DNA of 64,000 nt, from assembly GCA_020720045.1 (NCBI GenBank), contig DYPH01000008.1:1-64000 (forward strand). Direction: 5' to 3'. Below are positions 16,829-40,189 of the stretch, piece after piece. The stretch is from Sorangium cellulosum. Lineage in GTDB: Bacteria; Myxococcota_A; Polyangia; Polyangiales; Polyangiaceae. Both the position numbers and the translations under genes were made by a program. Numbering within the stretch: position 1 is the first letter of the stretch; every line of letters starts with the position of its first letter. Below the pieces are notes generated by a model. It did not search any database. It was not told the DNA's origin and was given only the letters and a program-made list of their open reading frames with translations.

Positions 16829-17245
16829 TCACGCCGCTGCGACCGCTACGCCGAGCGCCACGACGACCCAGGCGAGGAGTGCTGCGGCGGCGAAGGCGCG
16901 CTGGGCGGCAACGCGGACGCGCGCCTCAGAGACATCCCGCGGACCGCTCTGAAGGAGCGCTCCGGCGACGGCGAGCGTCACGACGGCGACCGCGAGGTGC
17001 TCTTTCCGTTCGAAGGCCCAGCCAAGCGCCGGGTGGGCGACGAATAGCGCCCGCCGGACCGTCTTCCGATAGTCGGGGTAGATGAAAAGACCGCCGCCGA
17101 AGGCAACGGCCGCAAGGGCGGCGGCCCCCCAAGAGGCGCCATTGGCCCGGCGGCGGGTCCGAAGGAGCAGCGCGGGATGAACGAGCGCAGCGGCAGCCAA
17201 GACGCCGAAATGGCCATGAATATGGGCGAGTAGCGAAAAGTTCAT
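16829..17245 (-). CDS. Small histidine-containing four-helix membrane protein
   Basis: 138 residues from ATG 17245. Four hydrophobic helices are visible (about 5-28, 40-56, 84-103, 115-136). Histidines cluster in helix 1 (LAHIHGHFG, His8, 10, 12, and HPALLL, His23) and between helices 2 and 4 (VAHPALGWAF, KEHLAV). The layout recalls small haem-b or copper-handling membrane proteins, but no family signature is certain. It is convergent with the PLD gene (one-base gap) and divergent from holB (77 bases). Confidence 0.7.
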   Translation of the reverse strand: MNFSLLAHIHGHFGVLAAAALVHPALLLRTRRRANGASWGAAALAAVAFGGGLFIYPDYRKTVRRALFVAHPALGWAFERKEHLAVAVVTLAVAGALLQSGPRDVSEARVRVAAQRAFAAAALLAWVVVALGVAVAAA

Positions 17246-17322
17246 GGACTCAAGTAGCGACCGTGCCCCCGCCTGGGAGGATTGCACCAGGCGGCCTAAA
17301 AAATGCGCTAGCACGACGCCCC

Positions 17323-30957: not shown

Positions 30958-31818
30958 TCAATGGATCACGTTCAGCTGCGCCAAATACATTTTTGCCTGC
31001 GGGGCAAACGAACTATCGGGGAAGCGCCGAATCAGATTCCGGTAGGCCTCTTTGGCATCATTCCACGACTGAAGCTCGGTGTGGCATTGGGCGAGCAGGT
31101 AGAGGGCGTCGTCCTGAACTTCGCGATCGACGGTCCCCTCGGAGAGGGCGGTCAGCGTCGGAATCGCATCCTTAAAGCGCCCAAGCTTCTTCAGCGATTC
31201 TGCAAGCGACAGGCGCACGCGGGGAGTCCCCTCCCCTTCCCCCTTCAGCCGCAGCGACTCCTCGAAGAGATTCACCGCCTCTTGCCAGCGCTGAAGCTTC
31301 ATCTTGTCGAGGCCCTGCAGCCAAAGTGAAATCGCGAGTTCTGCCTTTGTACGACCGACGATGTCTGTATAGAAAGCCCGCTCCGCTTTCGACAGAGGCT
31401 CTTTTTCGAGGCTCGCCCACTGCTCGACGACGTCCTGGCGCTTCCCTTGGCGAACAAGGTCGTAAAACGCGAGCGCCTTGGCTTCTGCGCGGGCGCGATC
31501 TTCATCGCGTGCGTTCGCGTCCTTCACCTCTTTGCGAAGGCGCGTTGCTTCCTGAGCGTGCCCTTCAGTCTCCGCCTTGATTTGGTCGACGCGCGCGTCC
31601 CAGGTCAATTTCAGGGCGCCAAATACGACGACGACGAACACGACGTACGCAGTCGCACTGTTCCAACGAATGCGCCCTTCGTAGGTCGCTTGCCGCTTTG
31701 CAATGCTCTTGACGTCGGCCGAGAGGGCGTTCGTCAGGTTGTTCGTCTTGATGACGAGCGCCCGCGACTCGATGATCTCTCGCTTGATTTCGCCAAGCTC
31801 TTCGTCGGTCTCACGCAT
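30958..31818 (-). CDS. Inner-membrane protein with coiled coil and C-terminal TPR repeats
   Basis: 286 residues from ATG 31818. A charged N-terminal coil (about 1-45) leads to one TM helix (YVVFVVVVFGALKLTW, about 57-73), a second coiled coil rich in Glu/Lys/Arg, and a TPR region with typical helix pairs (ALYLLAQCHTELQSWNDAK) ending FAPQAKMYLAQL. The topology resembles YbgF/CpoB-type or other envelope scaffold proteins, but YbgF is periplasmic and lacks this arrangement. It is divergent from efp and upstream of the metallophosphoesterase. Confidence 0.75.
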   Translation of the reverse strand: MRETDEELGEIKREIIESRALVIKTNNLTNALSADVKSIAKRQATYEGRIRWNSATAYVVFVVVVFGALKLTWDARVDQIKAETEGHAQEATRLRKEVKDANARDEDRARAEAKALAFYDLVRQGKRQDVVEQWASLEKEPLSKAERAFYTDIVGRTKAELAISLWLQGLDKMKLQRWQEAVNLFEESLRLKGEGEGTPRVRLSLAESLKKLGRFKDAIPTLTALSEGTVDREVQDDALYLLAQCHTELQSWNDAKEAYRNLIRRFPDSSFAPQAKMYLAQLNVIH

Positions 31819-31913
31819 TCGCGGCCGATTACCATGATTCCCGGAAAGGGCGCGCGCCGCGTCGCACAATCCCTCAGCTCGCCAGGTTGGGGCCGGTGAA
31901 CCGTGCTTGCGCA

Positions 31914-31928
31914 CACCGTCGTACGGTG
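31914..31928. promoter_or_regulatory. Small dyad in the leader of efp
   Basis: CACCGT-CGT-ACGGTG is a perfect 6-bp inverted repeat 17 bases before the efp start, between divergent genes. It might be an operator or leader hairpin; its length is near chance level in this GC-rich DNA. Confidence 0.2.
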
Positions 31929-31945
31929 CTACGGACCGCGCCGAA

Positions 31946-32509
31946 ATGGCCAGCACGACCGACATCCGCAAGGGGCTCAAGATTCAGATCGACGGCGTTC
32001 CCTACCACGTCGTTGAACACACCTTCGTGAAGCCCGGCAAAGGCCAGGCGTTCACGCGTTGCATGGTGCGTAACCTCACCAACGGCAAGGTCATCGAGCG
32101 CACCTGGAAGTCAGGCGATTCCGTCGAACTCGCCGACGTCGAGACCCGCGCGATGAACTTCTCCTGGGAAGAGGGCGACACCTACGTGTTCATGGACACC
32201 CTCACCGGCGACCAGATCTACGTCGAGAAGAACAAGCTCGGCAACGAAGCACGCTTCCTCGCGGAGAGCCTCACCTGCGACCTCACCCTTTACAATGGCA
32301 ACGCGATCGCGGTCGACCTCCCGGCCAACGTCATCATGCAGGTCGTCTCCAGCGAACCGGGCGTGAAGGGCGACACGGCGAGCGGTGCAACCAAGCCGGC
32401 GACGCTCGTGACGGGCGCGACGGTCAACGTCCCGCTCTTCATCAAAGAAGGCGAATGGATCAAAATCGACACGACCTCGGGCAACTACCTCGAGCGCGTC
32501 AATCGCTGA
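31946..32509 (+). CDS. efp: Elongation factor P
   Basis: 187 residues, the standard EF-P length, from ATG 31946 rather than the in-frame GTG at 31907. EF-P enters the ribosomal E site and rescues stalls at polyproline runs. All three domains are present; the tip loop is VKPGKGQAF with Lys32, the residue beta-lysylated by EpmA/EpmB in enterobacteria. Modifying enzymes are not in the window. A terminator follows at 32534. Confidence 0.97.
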   Translation: MASTTDIRKGLKIQIDGVPYHVVEHTFVKPGKGQAFTRCMVRNLTNGKVIERTWKSGDSVELADVETRAMNFSWEEGDTYVFMDTLTGDQIYVEKNKLGNEARFLAESLTCDLTLYNGNAIAVDLPANVIMQVVSSEPGVKGDTASGATKPATLVTGATVNVPLFIKEGEWIKIDTTSGNYLERVNR

Positions 32510-32533
32510 TTCTGGAGATTTCTCGGGAAATCT

Positions 32534-32563
32534 GAGGGGTTCGCGAGCAATCGCGAGCCTCTC
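32534..32563 (+). terminator. Intrinsic terminator of efp
   Basis: A 12-bp stem GAGGGGTTCGCG/CGCGAGCCTCTC with two G-T pairs and a 6-nt loop begins 24 bases after the efp stop and is followed by TTCCGTTT. Confidence 0.75.
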
Positions 32564-32597
32564 TTCCGTTTGTACCCCTGACTCGGGGCTCCCTCCG

Positions 32598-33284
32598 TCA
32601 CGACGCGATGAGCACCCGATAGGCCTCGACGATCGCGCGAAGTTCCGCGTTTCGTTTCTGAATCACCCCCTCCCCGTCCCGCGCGTTCCGGTCGGGATGG
32701 CGATCGGCGACGAGGCGGCGAAAAGCGCGAGTCACCGTCGCGCGATCGGCAGTTGCGGGGACGCCCAGGCAGGCTGCCGCCTCTGTGCGCGCGCTCGCTT
32801 CCACGCCGTTGTTGATTCGTAGCCGGCGACGCCTTCGGCCGGCGAGCATCTCCGCCGTCCCGAGGGGCGCTGTGGAGCTCCGCGGGGGACGGATCGCGGC
32901 GCGGAAGCGTAGGGTCGCGTCGGAGAGCCCTTCAAGGACGCTCAAACGGGCAAGGATCTGGGCGCGAAGCGCGCGATCCACTCGTCTTTCGTCGATTTCC
33001 CAGCGCGTTACGAGCACGCGGCCGTGGAGTTCCCCGGCGGCGACCGCCTGCTGGAGCGACTGGCGGAGCACCGCCGCGTCGACGCCGTCCCGAAGGAGCC
33101 ACTCGGACAGGCGCAGGCCGCGCGGGCTCTCGCAGGCGGTGACGGAACCACCTGCAAGATACACGCGATGCACCGCGCCGAAGCCCGGCTCGGTGAGCTC
33201 AAGGACGCCTGTTGCGCCGCCACGGTGGAGCGTTCCGAGGACGTCGCCGAGGGTCGTGTCGCGAAGACGCCTGGGAAGCTGCAT
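32598..33284 (-). CDS. DUF4388 (PATAN) protein with C-terminal J domain
   Basis: 228 residues. The N-terminal 150 residues match the DUF4388/PATAN layout (LGDVLGTLHRGGATGVLEL, then RVYLAGGSVTACESP and LLRDGVDAAVL), a domain common in Myxococcota regulatory and polarity proteins. The C-terminal 60 residues form a DnaJ-like unit: a short helix, TRAFRRLVADRHPDRN with the HPD tripeptide that activates Hsp70 ATPases, and a closing helix (AELRAIVEAYRVL). A basic linker (RRRRR) sits between. It would couple a DUF4388 sensor/partner domain to DnaK recruitment. Confidence 0.85.
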   Translation of the reverse strand: MQLPRRLRDTTLGDVLGTLHRGGATGVLELTEPGFGAVHRVYLAGGSVTACESPRGLRLSEWLLRDGVDAAVLRQSLQQAVAAGELHGRVLVTRWEIDERRVDRALRAQILARLSVLEGLSDATLRFRAAIRPPRSSTAPLGTAEMLAGRRRRRLRINNGVEASARTEAAACLGVPATADRATVTRAFRRLVADRHPDRNARDGEGVIQKRNAELRAIVEAYRVLIAS

Positions 33285-33337
33285 GCCCGTGCGCTACTGG
33301 AACTGCACCGCTCAAGCCAAATTTGCGGCGTTCGCCG

Positions 33338-35119
33338 TCAGAGATGGCCGACGATCGCGCGCCCCTTTTGAACGCACGCAACAAACGTCCCATCGTCGTT
33401 CGTCGTGCAGTGGCTCAGCGGACCGTCTTTGGGGTCCCCGAAGCCGACGAGGAAGCTCGTGAGCGCCGTCGCGCTTCCGACTTTCGCCTTGGCGACGACA
33501 ACACCAAAGCGCCCACCGACCGCGATCGCACCCCCTTTTGGAGCCAGCGGCGCGCCAAAAGGTGCTGGATTCGCGAGGAAATTTCGAGTGCTCGACGGCT
33601 CCGCGTTCGCGTAAGGGGCGGCGAATTTCAACGGTTCACCATCGACGTAGGCATAGAGCGCATCCCCGAGGCGCACCGGGAGGACCGGCAGGATGACCCC
33701 GTGATTGCCACAATTTTTTGGACGGAGTCGCGGCACGATCGGCAAGAGGGGATCCTTCGTGTCGGCCCCTTTTTCCGGGGCGAGCGTTGCACGGCCGGTC
33801 ACCCCGTCGCAGTTGTCCCATGCTTCGACCAGGGAAAACGCGCCGTCGGGCGTCTTGGCGCTCCGATCCCAAGGGATGGCATCGGCCAGGACCGCCTCAA
33901 CATCGGTCGCCGCCTCGACGCGCGTCGTGCGCGCCGCTTCGCGGACGAGAAGCGCCCCATCGGCGCCAAACGCGAGCGGTCCAAAGGAAGGATCCCCGAC
34001 CATCAAATCGGGAACTGCCGTCAAGAACTTCGCCGTCAATGGCGCTTTCTTCGGGGCAACTTTCGTGAGGGCTGCCAGAAAGACCTTTTCGTCAGCGGCC
34101 GTTGCCCCCTCGGCCGCAGCCCGCTCATAAAGCAGAATCGCCGACGGCGGGTCGCTCGGAAGCGTGGCCAGCGCGTGCCCGAGGTTCAAATCGACAACTG
34201 CACGCTCCCCACAGGACGGACGGGCATCCGGATAGGTCACCACAAATGCCTTAGGGCCACAGAGCGCTCCGTGAAGGGCCGCGAGCTCACGTGCCTTTGT
34301 GAGCGAGGCGTCACGGGCGACCATCCGGACCACCGATGCCTCTTTCGCAAAGGTTTTCGAGGGCTCCGCGCGATCGACGACGAGTCCACCCGCGCGATCG
34401 AGGTAGGCGATCGGAAGCTCGGTCTTTCCGACAGCGAGGGTGAGCGTGACGTCGGGACTTCCATCGTTGTCGCGATCCTCGACGCGCCCATCGACGGTAA
34501 AGCGATCATCGTTCCGAGCGATCGTGAGCGATGCTCGCGCCTGTAGATCCCCGGTTTTCGCCGTAAAAATCGTCGTTTGACGGGCCGAGTTATTTCCTGG
34601 GGATGCGTCGCAAACCGCAGAAACTTCGACGCGAACACCGCCCAAGACCGTCGAAATTTTTGCGCCAGGGATGCAGCTATCGCCCCCCCCAAATTTTGGA
34701 GCCGGCTGAATAATCTTCGGCGCACCGAGGGAAGCACCGGCACCGGGAAAAAAGAGGACGTCCGGCGGAATGTGGGCCCCGGTTCGGGCGGCGGCGGCGA
34801 CGAGGTCGTCTTTGCCGTCGCCGTCGACGTCGGCGAAGACGCCCGCCAGGAACTGCCCGCCGTCGGGGGCGTCTGCGGCAAGCGTGCCATGTTCCAAGTG
34901 TTTTCCGCCGCCGGACGGAGCGACCGCCGTCCCCGCCCCGGCATCAAGAACGAAGGGTGCCGTCGCTGCGAGGGCGTCTCCGCCAGCGTCGTGGACGGAG
35001 GGCTGCACCGTGTACGGGGGATTCGGATCACCGCCACATTTGCCGCTGCAAGCCGCGAGAAGGAGCGGAAGGCAAGCACGCGCCCAAAGGCGAGTCGACG
35101 ACGCGGTGCGGAAAGTCAT
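33338..35119 (-). CDS. FG-GAP/calcium-loop repeat lipoprotein
   Basis: 593 residues from ATG 35119, which begins a signal peptide with lipobox LLLAAC (Cys24). Two EF-loop-like FG-GAP motifs are visible, FADVDGDGKDDLVAAA and DRDNDGSPDVTL, which in this family bind Ca2+ in beta-propeller blades. The remainder is beta-rich and Ala/Gly/Pro-rich with scattered Cys, without a recognisable catalytic motif. It is probably a surface or periplasmic lipoprotein of unknown function. It is divergent from the operon at 35190, with 70 bases between starts. Confidence 0.75.
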   Translation of the reverse strand: MTFRTASSTRLWARACLPLLLAACSGKCGGDPNPPYTVQPSVHDAGGDALAATAPFVLDAGAGTAVAPSGGGKHLEHGTLAADAPDGGQFLAGVFADVDGDGKDDLVAAAARTGAHIPPDVLFFPGAGASLGAPKIIQPAPKFGGGDSCIPGAKISTVLGGVRVEVSAVCDASPGNNSARQTTIFTAKTGDLQARASLTIARNDDRFTVDGRVEDRDNDGSPDVTLTLAVGKTELPIAYLDRAGGLVVDRAEPSKTFAKEASVVRMVARDASLTKARELAALHGALCGPKAFVVTYPDARPSCGERAVVDLNLGHALATLPSDPPSAILLYERAAAEGATAADEKVFLAALTKVAPKKAPLTAKFLTAVPDLMVGDPSFGPLAFGADGALLVREAARTTRVEAATDVEAVLADAIPWDRSAKTPDGAFSLVEAWDNCDGVTGRATLAPEKGADTKDPLLPIVPRLRPKNCGNHGVILPVLPVRLGDALYAYVDGEPLKFAAPYANAEPSSTRNFLANPAPFGAPLAPKGGAIAVGGRFGVVVAKAKVGSATALTSFLVGFGDPKDGPLSHCTTNDDGTFVACVQKGRAIVGHL

Positions 35120-35189
35120 GGTCGGTGAAGAATCGGAATCTGGCCGAATTGTCCATGCGAATCGCGTGAGCGAGGTAGGGATCCTCCCG

Positions 35190-35993
35190 ATGCGCGCCGC
35201 TGCGCTCTTGGCGCTTGTATTCGTCGGGCTCTCCTCAGCCACCGGAACTCCCGGAACCGGCTGCATTTATGGCCCCCCGGCAGGCGGCGAACCCCGCCAG
35301 GAACCGGCAGAGTTACCTGCATCATGCACGGAAGCGGGCAACATGAACGGAGCGGACGCCTTCGCGTGCGGGGATGCGGCCCTCCGGGCCCAAGATCCCG
35401 AGCGCGCCTATCGCTTCCACGTGCGCGCCCTCGAAACGCTCGACGATCGCACGCTTGCTGAGCTCGCTTTCACCCGAGCCATCGACGACGCGCTGAGCCT
35501 TGACGACCTCACGGCGGCACAATCGCTCCTTGAGCGGCGTCCCGATCTCGACGACGGAGATCGTCGGCGCGTCGTTCGTCAGCGTCGCCGTGCGCGATTG
35601 CTCGCGCGCCTAGCTTTCGGCTTTCTTTTGCTTTTTCTCGGTTGCGGCGCTTGGCTCTCGGCCCGCAAGGGTCGAGAAACGCGGCCGTCCGCGAAGTCGA
35701 TCCAAGTGCGTACGTGGATCATTGCGCCGGCGGCCGGCGCGCTGTGGATCGGCATCGCGACCGGCTGGCTCGCCCCCCACTTTTCCGAAGGGACCTCCCC
35801 TCGCCCATTCTGGCTCTTTTCCGCAGCGATTCCCGTCGTTTCTCTCGTCGCTATCCCCTACGCACGAGCCGCAAACACCCGACGGTTTGCCGCCCCGCTC
35901 GCAGCCGTCGCAGTGCTCGCGGCGGCAATTCTTGTACTCTACACAAGCGATCGCGCCTGGCTCGCGACGCTGCTGCCCGGGCGAACGCCATGA
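35190..35993 (+). CDS. Secreted-domain/four-TM protein heading the radical SAM operon
   Basis: 267 residues from ATG 35190 (a GTG at 35166 is an alternative). Signal-peptide-like helix 1-18, then a roughly 115-residue extracytoplasmic part with paired Cys (25, 46, 60) and TPR-like helices (YRFHVRALETLDDRTLAELAF), then four TM helices (about 139-157, 173-193, 206-224, 234-251). No family is recognised. Its stop overlaps the start of the 87-residue candidate precursor by four bases, so the two are coupled. It could be a receptor, immunity or maturation/export partner for the peptide; this is inference from position. Confidence 0.75.
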   Translation: MRAAALLALVFVGLSSATGTPGTGCIYGPPAGGEPRQEPAELPASCTEAGNMNGADAFACGDAALRAQDPERAYRFHVRALETLDDRTLAELAFTRAIDDALSLDDLTAAQSLLERRPDLDDGDRRRVVRQRRRARLLARLAFGFLLLFLGCGAWLSARKGRETRPSAKSIQVRTWIIAPAAGALWIGIATGWLAPHFSEGTSPRPFWLFSAAIPVVSLVAIPYARAANTRRFAAPLAAVAVLAAAILVLYTSDRAWLATLLPGRTP

Positions 35994-36253
35994 CAAACCG
36001 CGACGACTCAACCTCCCCTCTTTCTTCGCGAATATCTGCGAACGTCCGCGCCGCGCGGAGCGGTCCCGGCGCAAACTGCTCAAGCCTCGGCAGCGCCGTC
36101 GATGCGCTCTTCCTCGGGTCTGTCGCCGTCGGCGCCCTGCTCGCGAGCGCTGCTACCGCCCTCGCCGCGGCGGAAGCGGCGGCCGCCGAAGCGAAGGAAG
36201 TGGGCGACGGGTCCGAGCCCGATCGACGAACCGAAAGTGAGGAGACGCCATGA
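35990..36253 (+). CDS. Short single-Cys peptide, candidate RiPP precursor
   Basis: 87 residues, start ATG 35990 overlapping the previous stop (ATGA); its own stop overlaps the radical SAM start. Layout: hydrophilic Ser/Arg-rich leader (1-24), a GPGANCSSLG turn with the only Cys (Cys30), an Ala/Val/Leu-rich hydrophobic stretch (about 37-63), a poly-Ala/Glu helix and an acidic tail. Small size, a distinct leader, a Cys-containing motif and direct coupling to a SPASM radical SAM enzyme match the precursor-plus-maturase arrangement of RiPP systems. The hydrophobic stretch could instead be a TM anchor. It is not a known family to me. Confidence 0.65.
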   Translation: MTNRDDSTSPLSSRISANVRAARSGPGANCSSLGSAVDALFLGSVAVGALLASAATALAAAEAAAAEAKEVGDGSEPDRRTESEETP

Positions 36254-37341
36254 TCGGCGTCCGCCCCCCGGGAAGCGACGTCGTTTGGTTTCGCGCAGGG
36301 AATTTCCTCGTCGCCGTCGATCCTGCGTCGGTCGATAGCGCCCGCGATCAGGTCCTTGAAGGGCCGGTCGAAATGCATGTATCCCTCACCGATGCCTGCG
36401 GCGTTGGATGCCCGGCCTGCTACGTCGATGCACGCCCCGACGGAGCTACACCCCCACTCGCAACCATCCTGGAGCGCGTCCGCGCCATCGCGGCCGAAGG
36501 GGTACGCACGGTTGCGTTCGGCGGCGGCGAGCCGCTGCTCCGGGCAGATCTTTATGAAATTGCTGAAGAAGCACGCCGGCTCGGTCTCGTTGCGGTCATC
36601 ACCACGAGCGGCTTCGGCCCTAGCGGAGCCGACGTCGTTCACCAGCTCGCGCACTTCGATCAAGTGAACCTAAGCCACGACGGCGTCGACGGCGGCTACG
36701 CGGCCGTGCGCGGCCGAGATGGCAGCGAGCGCGTCGCGGGCCTCACGACACGCCTCGTCGATGCGGGCGTACGCGTCGGCTGGAACGTCGTCCTAACACG
36801 CAATAATTTTAATATGTTGCGTGCCACGGTCGCGGCGGCGGCCGAACTCGGCGTCGCCGACGTCCAGCTGCTGCGGGTGAAGCCGGCGGGGCGCGCGACC
36901 GATCTCATTTATCGATCACTCCGTCTTACCGCGGAACAGGTCGCTGCGCTCCCGGGACTCCTCGCCGAGCTCGTCGCCGGCGCTCCGTCGATCCGCATCG
37001 ATTGCGCACTCATCCCCTTCCTTTTGTCGATCGATGCCACCGACGAGGTGGCTCGGAACTTCGCACAAAGAATGAAACAAACCGGGGTCTTCGGCTGCGA
37101 AGCCGGTCGATCCCTTGCGGCGCTCCGGACGGACGGAACGCGTGCAGGATGCAGCTTTGAGCCCCGTGCAGAGGCGAGCCACGCGCCGGCGTTTCATCAG
37201 GCACTCCCGGCCCCGTGCAATACGTGTACTTTGCAAGAAGTCTGTCGCGGCGGCTGCCGCATCGTCGCCGCGCGTTCCGGCGACCCAGAAGGGCGCGATC
37301 TGGAGTGCCCGCGAGTCCTTGCGCACCGAGACCGACCGTGA
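36250..37341 (+). CDS. Radical SAM/SPASM domain enzyme, probable peptide maturase
   Basis: 363 residues. The SAM cluster motif is CGVGCPAC (Cys50, 54, 57); GGGEP (91-95) helps bind SAM. The C-terminal part has a SPASM-type auxiliary-cluster set: Cys252, Cys283, Cys301, then CNTCTLQEVCRGGC (Cys323, 326, 332, 336) and Cys353. SPASM enzymes usually modify ribosomal peptides (thioether, C-C or other crosslinks). About 45 residues precede the barrel and lack a clear RRE fold. It overlaps both neighbours by four bases. The family is firm; the substrate is inferred to be the peptide encoded just upstream. Confidence 0.92.
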   Translation: MIGVRPPGSDVVWFRAGNFLVAVDPASVDSARDQVLEGPVEMHVSLTDACGVGCPACYVDARPDGATPPLATILERVRAIAAEGVRTVAFGGGEPLLRADLYEIAEEARRLGLVAVITTSGFGPSGADVVHQLAHFDQVNLSHDGVDGGYAAVRGRDGSERVAGLTTRLVDAGVRVGWNVVLTRNNFNMLRATVAAAAELGVADVQLLRVKPAGRATDLIYRSLRLTAEQVAALPGLLAELVAGAPSIRIDCALIPFLLSIDATDEVARNFAQRMKQTGVFGCEAGRSLAALRTDGTRAGCSFEPRAEASHAPAFHQALPAPCNTCTLQEVCRGGCRIVAARSGDPEGRDLECPRVLAHRDRP

Positions 37342-37640
37342 CGACCTCACGAGGTGATTTCCTGCGCGCGGGCGCGTTTGCGATGCTGGTGGCTCCGCTC
37401 TTGTACGCGCTCCTCCGGGCCGCTGAGGCAGTGCTTCATCCCGGCGGCGTCGACCCGACGCAGATCGTCATCGTCGGCCCGAGCGCCTACCTGCGACGTT
37501 GCCTGATGGTCGCGGTGTTTCTGCCGCCCGTCGCGGTCGCCGGCGCGCTTCTCCCCGCGAAAAACGTGCTACGCGCGCTCCCCGTGCTCACCGTCGCCGC
37601 CCCCCTCGCCGTTGTGCTCGTCGCGGTTTTTGCGCCGTGA
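37338..37640 (+). CDS. Small three-TM membrane protein in the radical SAM operon
   Basis: 100 residues from a GTG whose GTGA overlaps the radical SAM stop. Three hydrophobic helices (about 11-27, 56-72, 80-98) with a short extramembrane loop (HPGGVDPTQIVIVGPSA). No motif identifies it. It could be an immunity or transport accessory protein of the peptide system; this is positional inference. Confidence 0.7.
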   Translation: MTTSRGDFLRAGAFAMLVAPLLYALLRAAEAVLHPGGVDPTQIVIVGPSAYLRRCLMVAVFLPPVAVAGALLPAKNVLRALPVLTVAAPLAVVLVAVFAP

Positions 37641-40189
37641 CGCCGCTCCCGATCGATGCCGAAATGCCGCGGCTCCTCGCCGAACTCGACGCGCGAAAGA
37701 CGCTCGTCGTCGTCGCCGAACCGGGCGCCGGAAAGACCACACGCCTCCCCCGTGCACTTCTAGACCTTGATTTACCAGGGGAAATCATTGTGTTGGAGCC
37801 GCGACGAATCGCGGCGCGAATGGCGGCACGCCGGGTGGCGGAAGAGGCCGGCGAACGCATCGGGGAGCGTGTAGGATACACCGTTCGCTTCGAAGACGTC
37901 TCTTCATCGAAGACGCGACTCCGCTTCGTCACCGAGGGGATCCTGACTCGGCGCTTTGCCACCGATCCCGATTTGAAGGGGGTCTCTGCCGTCGTGCTCG
38001 ACGAGTTTCACGAGCGTCATCTCCACGGCGATCTCGCGGCGGCGTGGCTCCGCGACCTCCGCCTGCGACGGCCCGATTTGCTGGTCTGCGTAATGTCGGC
38101 AACCCTCGACGCCGCGGCGGTCGCGACTTGGTTCGATGCGCCGATCGCAACGGTAGGAGGCCGCACCTACCCCGTCGCGGTGACCTACCTCGGCGCCGAC
38201 GAGCGCCCGCTGGAAGCGCAGGTCGTGAGTGGCGTTCGTGGGGCGCTTGCCGCAACCACTGGAGATATCCTCGTTTTTTTGCCAGGGGCCGGCGAGATTC
38301 GGCGGGCCGAGGAGGCACTTGCCGGGCTCGCAGGGAAAGAGGGGCTTCGGATCTTTCCGCTCCACGGGGACCTGCCGCCGGAAGCCCAAGATCTGGCGGT
38401 CCGCAAAGGGCCTGCCGGCGCCGGCCGGAAGGTCGTCCTCGCGACAAACGTCGCCGAGTCGTCGCTCACGATCGATGGGGTGACGGCCGTCGTCGACAGC
38501 GGTTTGGAGCGTATCGCCGGCTTCGACGCGTGGAGCGGCCTGTCGACGCTGGAACTCGCCAAGTCATCGCGTGCATCGTGCATTCAACGTGCCGGTCGCG
38601 CCGGCCGCACGCAGGCCGGCACCGCCTTTCGCCTGTACGCCGAGGCCGACTTCGAACGCCGACCGATGCACGGAACGCCCGAATTCGCGCGTGCCGACCT
38701 CACCGACGTCGAACTCCTCCTCGCATCACTCCGTAAACGCGACCTGCCGCTCCTCGATCCGCCCAAAGCGGAAGTGCGCGCGCAGGCTCGTGCGCTCCTG
38801 GAACGGCTCGGCACGACAACCGCGGACGGCGAAGCGACGCCTCTCGGACGAAAGGTCCTTCCGCTTCCTGTACCCGTTCGCCTCGGATGCTTGATTCACC
38901 AAGGAATTTCGGTCGGTATCGGAGGGACGGCGATCCTCGCGGCGGCGATCCTTAGCGAGCGCGATCTTCGCCGCGAAACGCGGGTTTCTTTTGGAAATCA
39001 AGCACGTAGCTTCGGTGACCGAGGTGCAGACAGCTCCGATGTCGAGACCCTGATCGACCTCTTCCGGGAGGTCGCGTTTGCGATTTTTTCCGGCAGTGCA
39101 ATTCGCGCCGCCGAGCTCGACCCCGGCGCCGTCGCACGCGTGCGAAAGGGCGTCGAGGCGCTTTCGAGGCACGGAAGCCTCCGCGGACAGGGGACCGAAG
39201 ACGAAGGCGATTTCGGAACGACGGGGGAGCGCCTCCGGCGATGCCTGCTTGCCGCCTTCCCCGATCGGGTCGCAAAGCGGAAAAAGGCGGGCGGGCGTGA
39301 CCTCGCGCTCGCGGGCGTGGGCGTCGCAACGCTTGCGGAAGCCTCCGTCGTGCGCCACGCGGAATGGATGATTTGTGCGTCGGCGAGCGTGCGCCGCGGG
39401 CGGCTTGAGGTGGAGAGCGCCGCCGAAATCGACCCGTTCTGGCTCGTCGAACTCTTTCCGGAAAAGCTTGTGGAAGAGAAGCTCGTGACGTTCAACGACG
39501 CAACGGGGCGAGCGGTCGGCCTCGCGCGCACGCTCTACGACGGCATCGTCCTCGACGAGGCGAAGTTCACGCCGCCGCCGGAATTGCTGGCCCGCACGCT
39601 TGCAAAGGCGCTCCTGGCCAAGGGGGCCCACCGACTCGCAAAAGAAGGTGCCCTCGACCGCCTCGTCCATCGCGTCGCCTTTGCGCGGCGTGTTCTCCGA
39701 TCGGGTGTCTCGCTGGGCGGAGACAGCCGCGATTCGCCGGAACTCGCACCCCTCGACGATGCTGCCATCGAAGATGCAGTGTCCCGCGCCTGCGAAGGCT
39801 GCACAAGTCTGAACGATCTCAAGGATTTCGACCTCGCCGACTGGCTCACAAACACGCTGCCGCGGAGCGTCGAGTCGGCCGCCCCCGAGACGGTGAAGCT
39901 TCCGAGCGGACGCGTCGTTCCCGTCCACTACGAGCGCGACCAGGACCCGTGGGTTGCGTCGTACCTGCAGGATTTCTGCGGCGGCGGCGATCGTGTACTC
40001 GCCGTGAACGGCACGCCGCTCGTGGCCCACCTCCTCGCCCCGAACAAGCGATCGGTGCAAATTACACGCGACCTACCGAACTTCTTCCGGACCCACTACC
40101 CGGCGATCCGGAAGGAGCTGATGCGCAAGTATCCAAAACATGCGTGGCCCGAGGACCCGTCGGTACCGATTCCACCACGCTTTCGGTGA
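37637..40189 (+). CDS. hrpB: ATP-dependent helicase HrpB
   Basis: 850 residues from a GTG that overlaps the previous stop (GTGA). HrpB is a DEAH/RHA-family SF2 helicase. Present: Walker A GAGKTT (30-35), the DEFH box DEFHERHL (121-128), SATLD, motif V TNVAESSLTIDGV, motif VI IQRAGRAGRTQAG, the HA2 helicase-associated region, and the HrpB C-terminal domain (HYERDQDPWVASYLQDFCG, YPKHAWPEDPS). Its role in bacteria is poorly defined. Its place at the end of the peptide operon is probably read-through co-transcription rather than function. Confidence 0.95.
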   Translation: MTPLPIDAEMPRLLAELDARKTLVVVAEPGAGKTTRLPRALLDLDLPGEIIVLEPRRIAARMAARRVAEEAGERIGERVGYTVRFEDVSSSKTRLRFVTEGILTRRFATDPDLKGVSAVVLDEFHERHLHGDLAAAWLRDLRLRRPDLLVCVMSATLDAAAVATWFDAPIATVGGRTYPVAVTYLGADERPLEAQVVSGVRGALAATTGDILVFLPGAGEIRRAEEALAGLAGKEGLRIFPLHGDLPPEAQDLAVRKGPAGAGRKVVLATNVAESSLTIDGVTAVVDSGLERIAGFDAWSGLSTLELAKSSRASCIQRAGRAGRTQAGTAFRLYAEADFERRPMHGTPEFARADLTDVELLLASLRKRDLPLLDPPKAEVRAQARALLERLGTTTADGEATPLGRKVLPLPVPVRLGCLIHQGISVGIGGTAILAAAILSERDLRRETRVSFGNQARSFGDRGADSSDVETLIDLFREVAFAIFSGSAIRAAELDPGAVARVRKGVEALSRHGSLRGQGTEDEGDFGTTGERLRRCLLAAFPDRVAKRKKAGGRDLALAGVGVATLAEASVVRHAEWMICASASVRRGRLEVESAAEIDPFWLVELFPEKLVEEKLVTFNDATGRAVGLARTLYDGIVLDEAKFTPPPELLARTLAKALLAKGAHRLAKEGALDRLVHRVAFARRVLRSGVSLGGDSRDSPELAPLDDAAIEDAVSRACEGCTSLNDLKDFDLADWLTNTLPRSVESAAPETVKLPSGRVVPVHYERDQDPWVASYLQDFCGGGDRVLAVNGTPLVAHLLAPNKRSVQITRDLPNFFRTHYPAIRKELMRKYPKHAWPEDPSVPIPPRFR

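Follow-up and report, generated by a model that had tools for sequence, protein, structure and literature searches.

A radical SAM/SPASM enzyme (here called C) and a short peptide encoded immediately upstream of it (B) very probably form a real pair of enzyme and substrate, and very probably represent a peptide and enzyme family undescribed in Pfam, NCBIfam or the searched literature. The reading we favor is that C modifies the core of B, and that B is a membrane-held subunit of an envelope complex with the membrane protein A, usually joined by two further membrane proteins, D and D2. Whether such loci define a hitherto undescribed class of membrane peptides modified by radical SAM enzymes, marked by a Cys/Ser-centered modification in an envelope-complex subunit, by natural fusions and by occurrence in Myxococcota and scattered phyla, we consider an even call. 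The genes lie in a 64,000-nucleotide stretch of Sorangium cellulosum DNA (contig DYPH01000008.1; "the window"), and their coordinates are collected in Table 1.

Table 1 Genes, motifs and segments of the B/C locus and of the detached D2 gene, in window positions.
Feature	Position	Strand	Basis or remark
A, exported protein (N-terminal signal, about 4 TM segments)	35190..35993	+	sequence, homology
B, 87-aa peptide with one Cys, proposed substrate	35990..36253	+	ATGA at 35990
B core, residues 25-35 (GPGANCSSLGS)	36062..36094	+	alignment of distinct copies
B hydrophobic segment, residues 40-58	36107..36163	+	Kyte-Doolittle 1.99
C, radical SAM/SPASM enzyme, 363 aa, proposed maturase of B	36250..37341	+	ATGA at 36250
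C50-x3-C54-x2-C57, radical SAM cluster motif	36397..36420	+	invariant in alignment A2
SPASM cysteines C283, C301, C323, C326, C332, C336, C353	37096..37308	+	invariant in A2
D, 100-aa membrane protein with about 3 hydrophobic segments, weakly conserved	37338..37640	+	GTGA at 37338
hrpB helicase gene, neighbor outside the system	37637..40189	+	GTGA at 37637
D2, His-containing membrane protein of about 139 aa with about 4 TM segments	16829..17248	-	HMM match 16832-17242, E 1.2e-37

Four 4-base overlaps connect A, B, C, D and hrpB, and the five-gene chain described in the initial annotation was confirmed in the window sequence. The A-B, B-C and C-D overlaps are found again in relatives (for example at 1764/1761, 2003/2000 and 3166/3163 in L042) and are therefore not a product of chance. 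No recurrence of the D-hrpB overlap was seen in the relatives examined. The identity of HrpB itself is clear (TIGR01970, 596.6 bits against a cut-off of 546), and in six relatives (L034, L039, L040, L042, L049, L065) its gene is preceded by an opposite-strand gene of 344-355 aa, which we take to be murB; at most other loci beyond those six no hrpB stands at that place. Since its overlap with D is unrepeated and an opposite-strand gene sets it apart in relatives, hrpB is a neighbor. It was rejected as a member of the system, although the initial annotation had counted it among the five linked genes of its candidate system. Upstream, window positions 30958-35266 hold a TPR gene, efp, a DnaJ-like gene and an FG-GAP lipoprotein gene, a set also present upstream in several relatives, with parts of it seen in L034, L038, L043, L049 and L054. 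This recurrence suggests that the locus is vertically inherited.

The association of B with C extends across the order, whose named loci (Polyangium, Minicystis, Labilithrix, Sandaracinus) place it in Myxococcota. B was detected with profile A1 in 61 of 184 genomes and C with profile A2 in 63; both occur together in 59, leaving two genomes with B only and four with C only (Fisher p=1e-40, uncorrected for genome relatedness). Several of these exceptions are contig ends or partial matches. A search of 79 related genomes returned about thirty close C orthologues (40-53% identity), most of them with a short B-type gene in the upstream flank. When genomes were chosen for having no obvious peptide adjoining the enzyme, a genome-wide search with the B profile found the peptide in 21/21. 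The 87-residue single-Cys gene is thus real, conserved and tied to the SPASM enzyme, as had been proposed from the window: homologues of the enzyme mostly come with the short gene, beside them or elsewhere in the genome, and the short gene is conserved among close relatives.

Conservation in B is concentrated in a near-invariant core, G-x3-N-[C/S]-S-[S/A]-x-G, lying just N-terminal of a hydrophobic helix. Among 81 distinct copies (window numbering), Asn occupies position 29 in 80, and all 81 have Ser at position 31. Position 32 holds Ser (74 copies) or Ala (7), and Gly fills position 34 in 79. At position 30 there are 64 copies with Cys and 17 with Ser, and no other residue was found. In close relatives the core reads GANCSS(I/V/L)GS and is followed by the hydrophobic segment, whose Kyte-Doolittle values range from 1.5 to 2.6 across all copies tested; the topology signal from charge bias is ambiguous. 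A copy about 1.1 kb upstream of its radical SAM match in L100 is the only one to carry Ser for the core Asn (AASCSSVGS). No Pfam or NCBIfam family matched B, D or D2 above its cut-off. The motifs "NPNSSS" and "GANCSS" were absent from the searched literature, a body of text that mostly leaves out subscription journals, and a broader search returned no title or abstract describing the B/C system among the portions of the literature it reached.

C scores 63.2 bits against PF04055 (cut-off 29.5) and carries a complete SPASM pattern (C-x9-15-G-x4-C, C-x2-C-x5-C-x3-C, C). A PF13186 scan of its own genome did not list the window C locus; TIGR04085 is above its cut-off in the relative L067. C matches no named NCBIfam equivalog: the nearest include StsB, NirJ, MftC, PqqE and GeoRSP, every one of them scoring well below cut-off (67.4 against 265 bits for MftC, TIGR03962; 65.4 against 381.35 bits for PqqE, TIGR02109). 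The fold was compared using AlphaFold models of two relatives in which B and C are fused, L124 (pLDDT 93, pTM 0.91) and L127 (91, 0.92), rather than a model of window C. Against these two models, solved peptide-maturase folds give Z scores of 21-29, led by SuiB (29.1, 371 aligned), SkfB (27.8) and PqqE (25.4) and followed by ChlB (25.2), CteB (25.1) and anSME (24.7). The C family, as modeled, thus resembles the peptide maturases SuiB, SkfB, CteB, PqqE and anSME in fold. Only general radical SAM proteins were matched in a viral structure library.

Natural fusions also join the two genes. Seventeen distinct copies of B are attached to the N-terminal end of C; among them is a third group of enzymes, 15 of which had seemingly lacked a peptide, that proved to carry B at the enzyme N-terminus. 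On the enzyme tree the fusion was gained or lost at least twice, with a separate fusion (L051) positioned inside Polyangiales. L061 also looks fused, with stops in its frame, and was left out of the tree. A fused enzyme from a MAG record titled Klebsiella pneumoniae (L135) groups with Myxococcota-type fusions, and the label of that MAG is probably wrong. In the L127 model the peptide forms a strand at residues 5-10 (pLDDT 85), hydrogen-bonded according to DSSP, and a helix at 30-48 (pLDDT 91-94); the motif loop between them is less certain (66-73), and the linker is poorly ordered, with pLDDT down to below 50. Where an RRE, an N-terminal winged-helix peptide-binding domain, would be sought, model residues from about 51 to 120 can be aligned to the N-terminal portion of SuiB, a short region that is shorter still in window C. 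The ordered strand and helix fit substrate binding by strand addition, with the qualification that an isolated helix may likewise receive high confidence in such models.

A is a regular partner of B and C. An A-family gene stands directly upstream of 33 of 64 distinct separate B genes and of 10 of 17 fused ones. The family in relatives combines a TPR region with 4-5 TM segments and a C-terminal "FGL"-like end, and its profile recovers mainly TPR proteins from the PDB; the window protein is a divergent, shortened member (phmmer E 9.7e-10 to the L042 protein). The extreme C-termini of two of the membrane proteins are conserved, with FGL-like residues in A (alignment A5) and a proline in D (alignment A6). 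Of the two membrane proteins that the initial annotation had suggested as partners, A holds up as a regular partner, and D, missing from L034 and L039, was rejected as an obligate member; it is a frequent partner nonetheless.

In many relatives the D2 gene directly follows D. D2 was likewise rejected as an obligate member: 53 genomes with C contain it and 10 with C do not, and it is present without either B or C in 11 genomes. A match to COX15/CtaA (E 0.0068) is too weak for assignment, and a PDB profile search returned no solved relative. Where the enzyme is encoded apart, whether on the opposite strand or at another site, A-B-D-D2 are kept in a row (L207-L211, L214). Stand-alone second copies of B occur in Polyangium-type genomes (L202-L205, L212, L213), where a 4-base overlap couples them to the gene for an exported protein of 1,247 aa; TPR, DUF3857 and transglutaminase-like domains make up that protein's recognizable parts. 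An M14 carboxypeptidase gene lies upstream of B in L059. Among A-D and their recurrent neighbors we found no protease or transporter for leader removal and export, and the locus has no variable immunity gene; processing could still fall to genes elsewhere.

More distant C enzymes (33-43% identity) occur in MAGs labeled Planctomycetota, Spirochaetales, Chitinispirillaceae and Desulfobacteraceae, where the B core is GYNPNSSS(M/V/I)GS or a close variant, with Ser replacing Cys. Ser-form B corresponds to a single well-supported clade of the enzyme tree that also includes MAGs labeled Fibrobacterota, such labels being fallible. Each of four loci outside Myxococcota encodes two B-type peptides and one detected radical SAM enzyme of the C family. 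Besides their pair of NPNSSS peptides, the rows at L128, L131, L138 and L143 encode a lipoprotein of TlpA/ResA-like type, a multi-TM protein that is phosphoesterase-like and bears CxxC motifs, and a 200-aa protein that has a single TM segment and matches DUF2950 weakly. From its Cys motifs we take the second region of the phosphoesterase-like protein to be CcdA/DsbD-like; Pfam offers only a sub-threshold SfLAP match there.

Conservation, co-occurrence, gene coupling, fusion and the enzyme fold in models of relatives are the direct observations from which we infer a chemical change of B, the residue concerned, a membrane-spanning helix and a role in a complex. C would bind B and introduce a radical-dependent change at N29-C30-S31, where the other clade has Ser at 30. 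With Cys and Ser the sole residues seen at position 30, both having sulfur or oxygen side chains that can be oxidized or linked, the chemistry is probably located there; the leading candidate is a cross-link (thioether or ether) to a carbon close by, and an anSME-like oxidation ranks second. B would then stay unreleased, held in or at the membrane by its hydrophobic helix, and act as a small envelope-complex subunit alongside A and, in most cases, D and D2. One objection is that in fusions a spanning helix would place the motif across the membrane from the cytosolic enzyme; either modification precedes insertion or the helix does not span.

Alternatively, B could be a docking or membrane-anchoring subunit of C, the true substrate being something else, such as the conserved C-terminus of A. 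Repeated fusion of B to the N-terminus of C would suit an anchor, as would the high-confidence helix modeled beside the N-terminal beta domain of the enzyme and the FGL-like tail of A. We nevertheless think it unlikely that B is an anchor, given that conservation peaks in the short N-[C/S]-S loop and not in the helix, that B remains beside A, D and D2 when C is detached, and that other phyla have two peptides per locus. A precursor of a peptide-derived cofactor, in the manner of MftA (mycofactocin) or PqqA (PQQ), would share the invariant core of B, and MftC, PqqE and GeoRSP do rank among the best-scoring NCBIfam profiles when C and its relatives are searched. Every such score is far under its cut-off, however; the genes that come next at the locus encode neither a peptidase nor an oxidoreductase, the core is placed mid-peptide ahead of a hydrophobic helix, and B is paired with membrane proteins, which together make a cofactor precursor quite improbable.

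An exported antimicrobial or signaling RiPP, for which A and D would provide export or immunity, is what a short peptide and membrane proteins beside a SPASM enzyme would ordinarily bring to mind, and the initial annotation leaned toward a membrane-active product or a membrane-displayed one. The core barely changes between phyla, and the locus holds no transporter, protease or variable immunity gene, so a secreted or toxin-like product does not fit. The peptide is moreover fused to the enzyme in places, and the gene order around the locus is common to several relatives. We therefore give an exported RiPP very little credence: the membrane-active, toxin-like option finds no support, and a membrane-held subunit is the more likely product of B. 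Radical-SAM-modified peptides known so far are mostly toxins, signals or cofactor precursors; a near-invariant, apparently membrane-held substrate retained across phyla would point to a structural or redox role instead.

Several known systems share features with B/C. Streptide (SuiA/SuiB) and the sporulation killing factor (SkfA/SkfB) likewise combine a SPASM enzyme with an adjoining short peptide gene, and SuiB and SkfB are the closest folds to the C-family models, the alignment reaching into part of the N-terminal peptide-binding region. They differ in sequence (16-20% identity), in the invariant mid-peptide core and hydrophobic helix of B, in the lack of secretion genes at B/C loci and in the occasional fusion of B to C. 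MftA/MftC and PqqA/PqqE resemble B/C in having a conserved precursor without toxin-like diversification and in supplying some of the best profiles for C, but C falls far under those family cut-offs and B/C loci lack cofactor-processing genes. The anaerobic sulfatase maturase anSME has a SPASM fold in common with the C-family models (Z 21-25) and acts on either Cys or Ser, a choice matching the exchange at B position 30. In contrast to anSME, the B/C system has a small-peptide substrate with the core N-[CS]-S-[SA]-x-G and no CxPxR/SxPxR motif, and no sulfatase. Borosins also unite modifying enzyme and peptide in one chain; there the enzyme is an N-methyltransferase and the peptide is C-terminal, whereas here a radical SAM enzyme carries the peptide at its N-terminus. 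With enzyme and substrate in one chain, the natural B-C fusions would let mass spectrometry test the chemistry directly, and the conserved motif provides a simple handle for genome mining.

The window copy is intact yet divergent. Its C has the longest terminal branch of the tree (1.08; median 0.27), and this long branch, the short A and the displaced D2 make relatives the better experimental material. The sister genome G001, the only other genome of the genus, is without B and C and has kept D2. In the window, D2 lies 18 kb upstream of the other genes on the opposite strand, isolated, with a phospholipase-D-like gene on one side and a DNA polymerase III delta-prime-like gene on the other.
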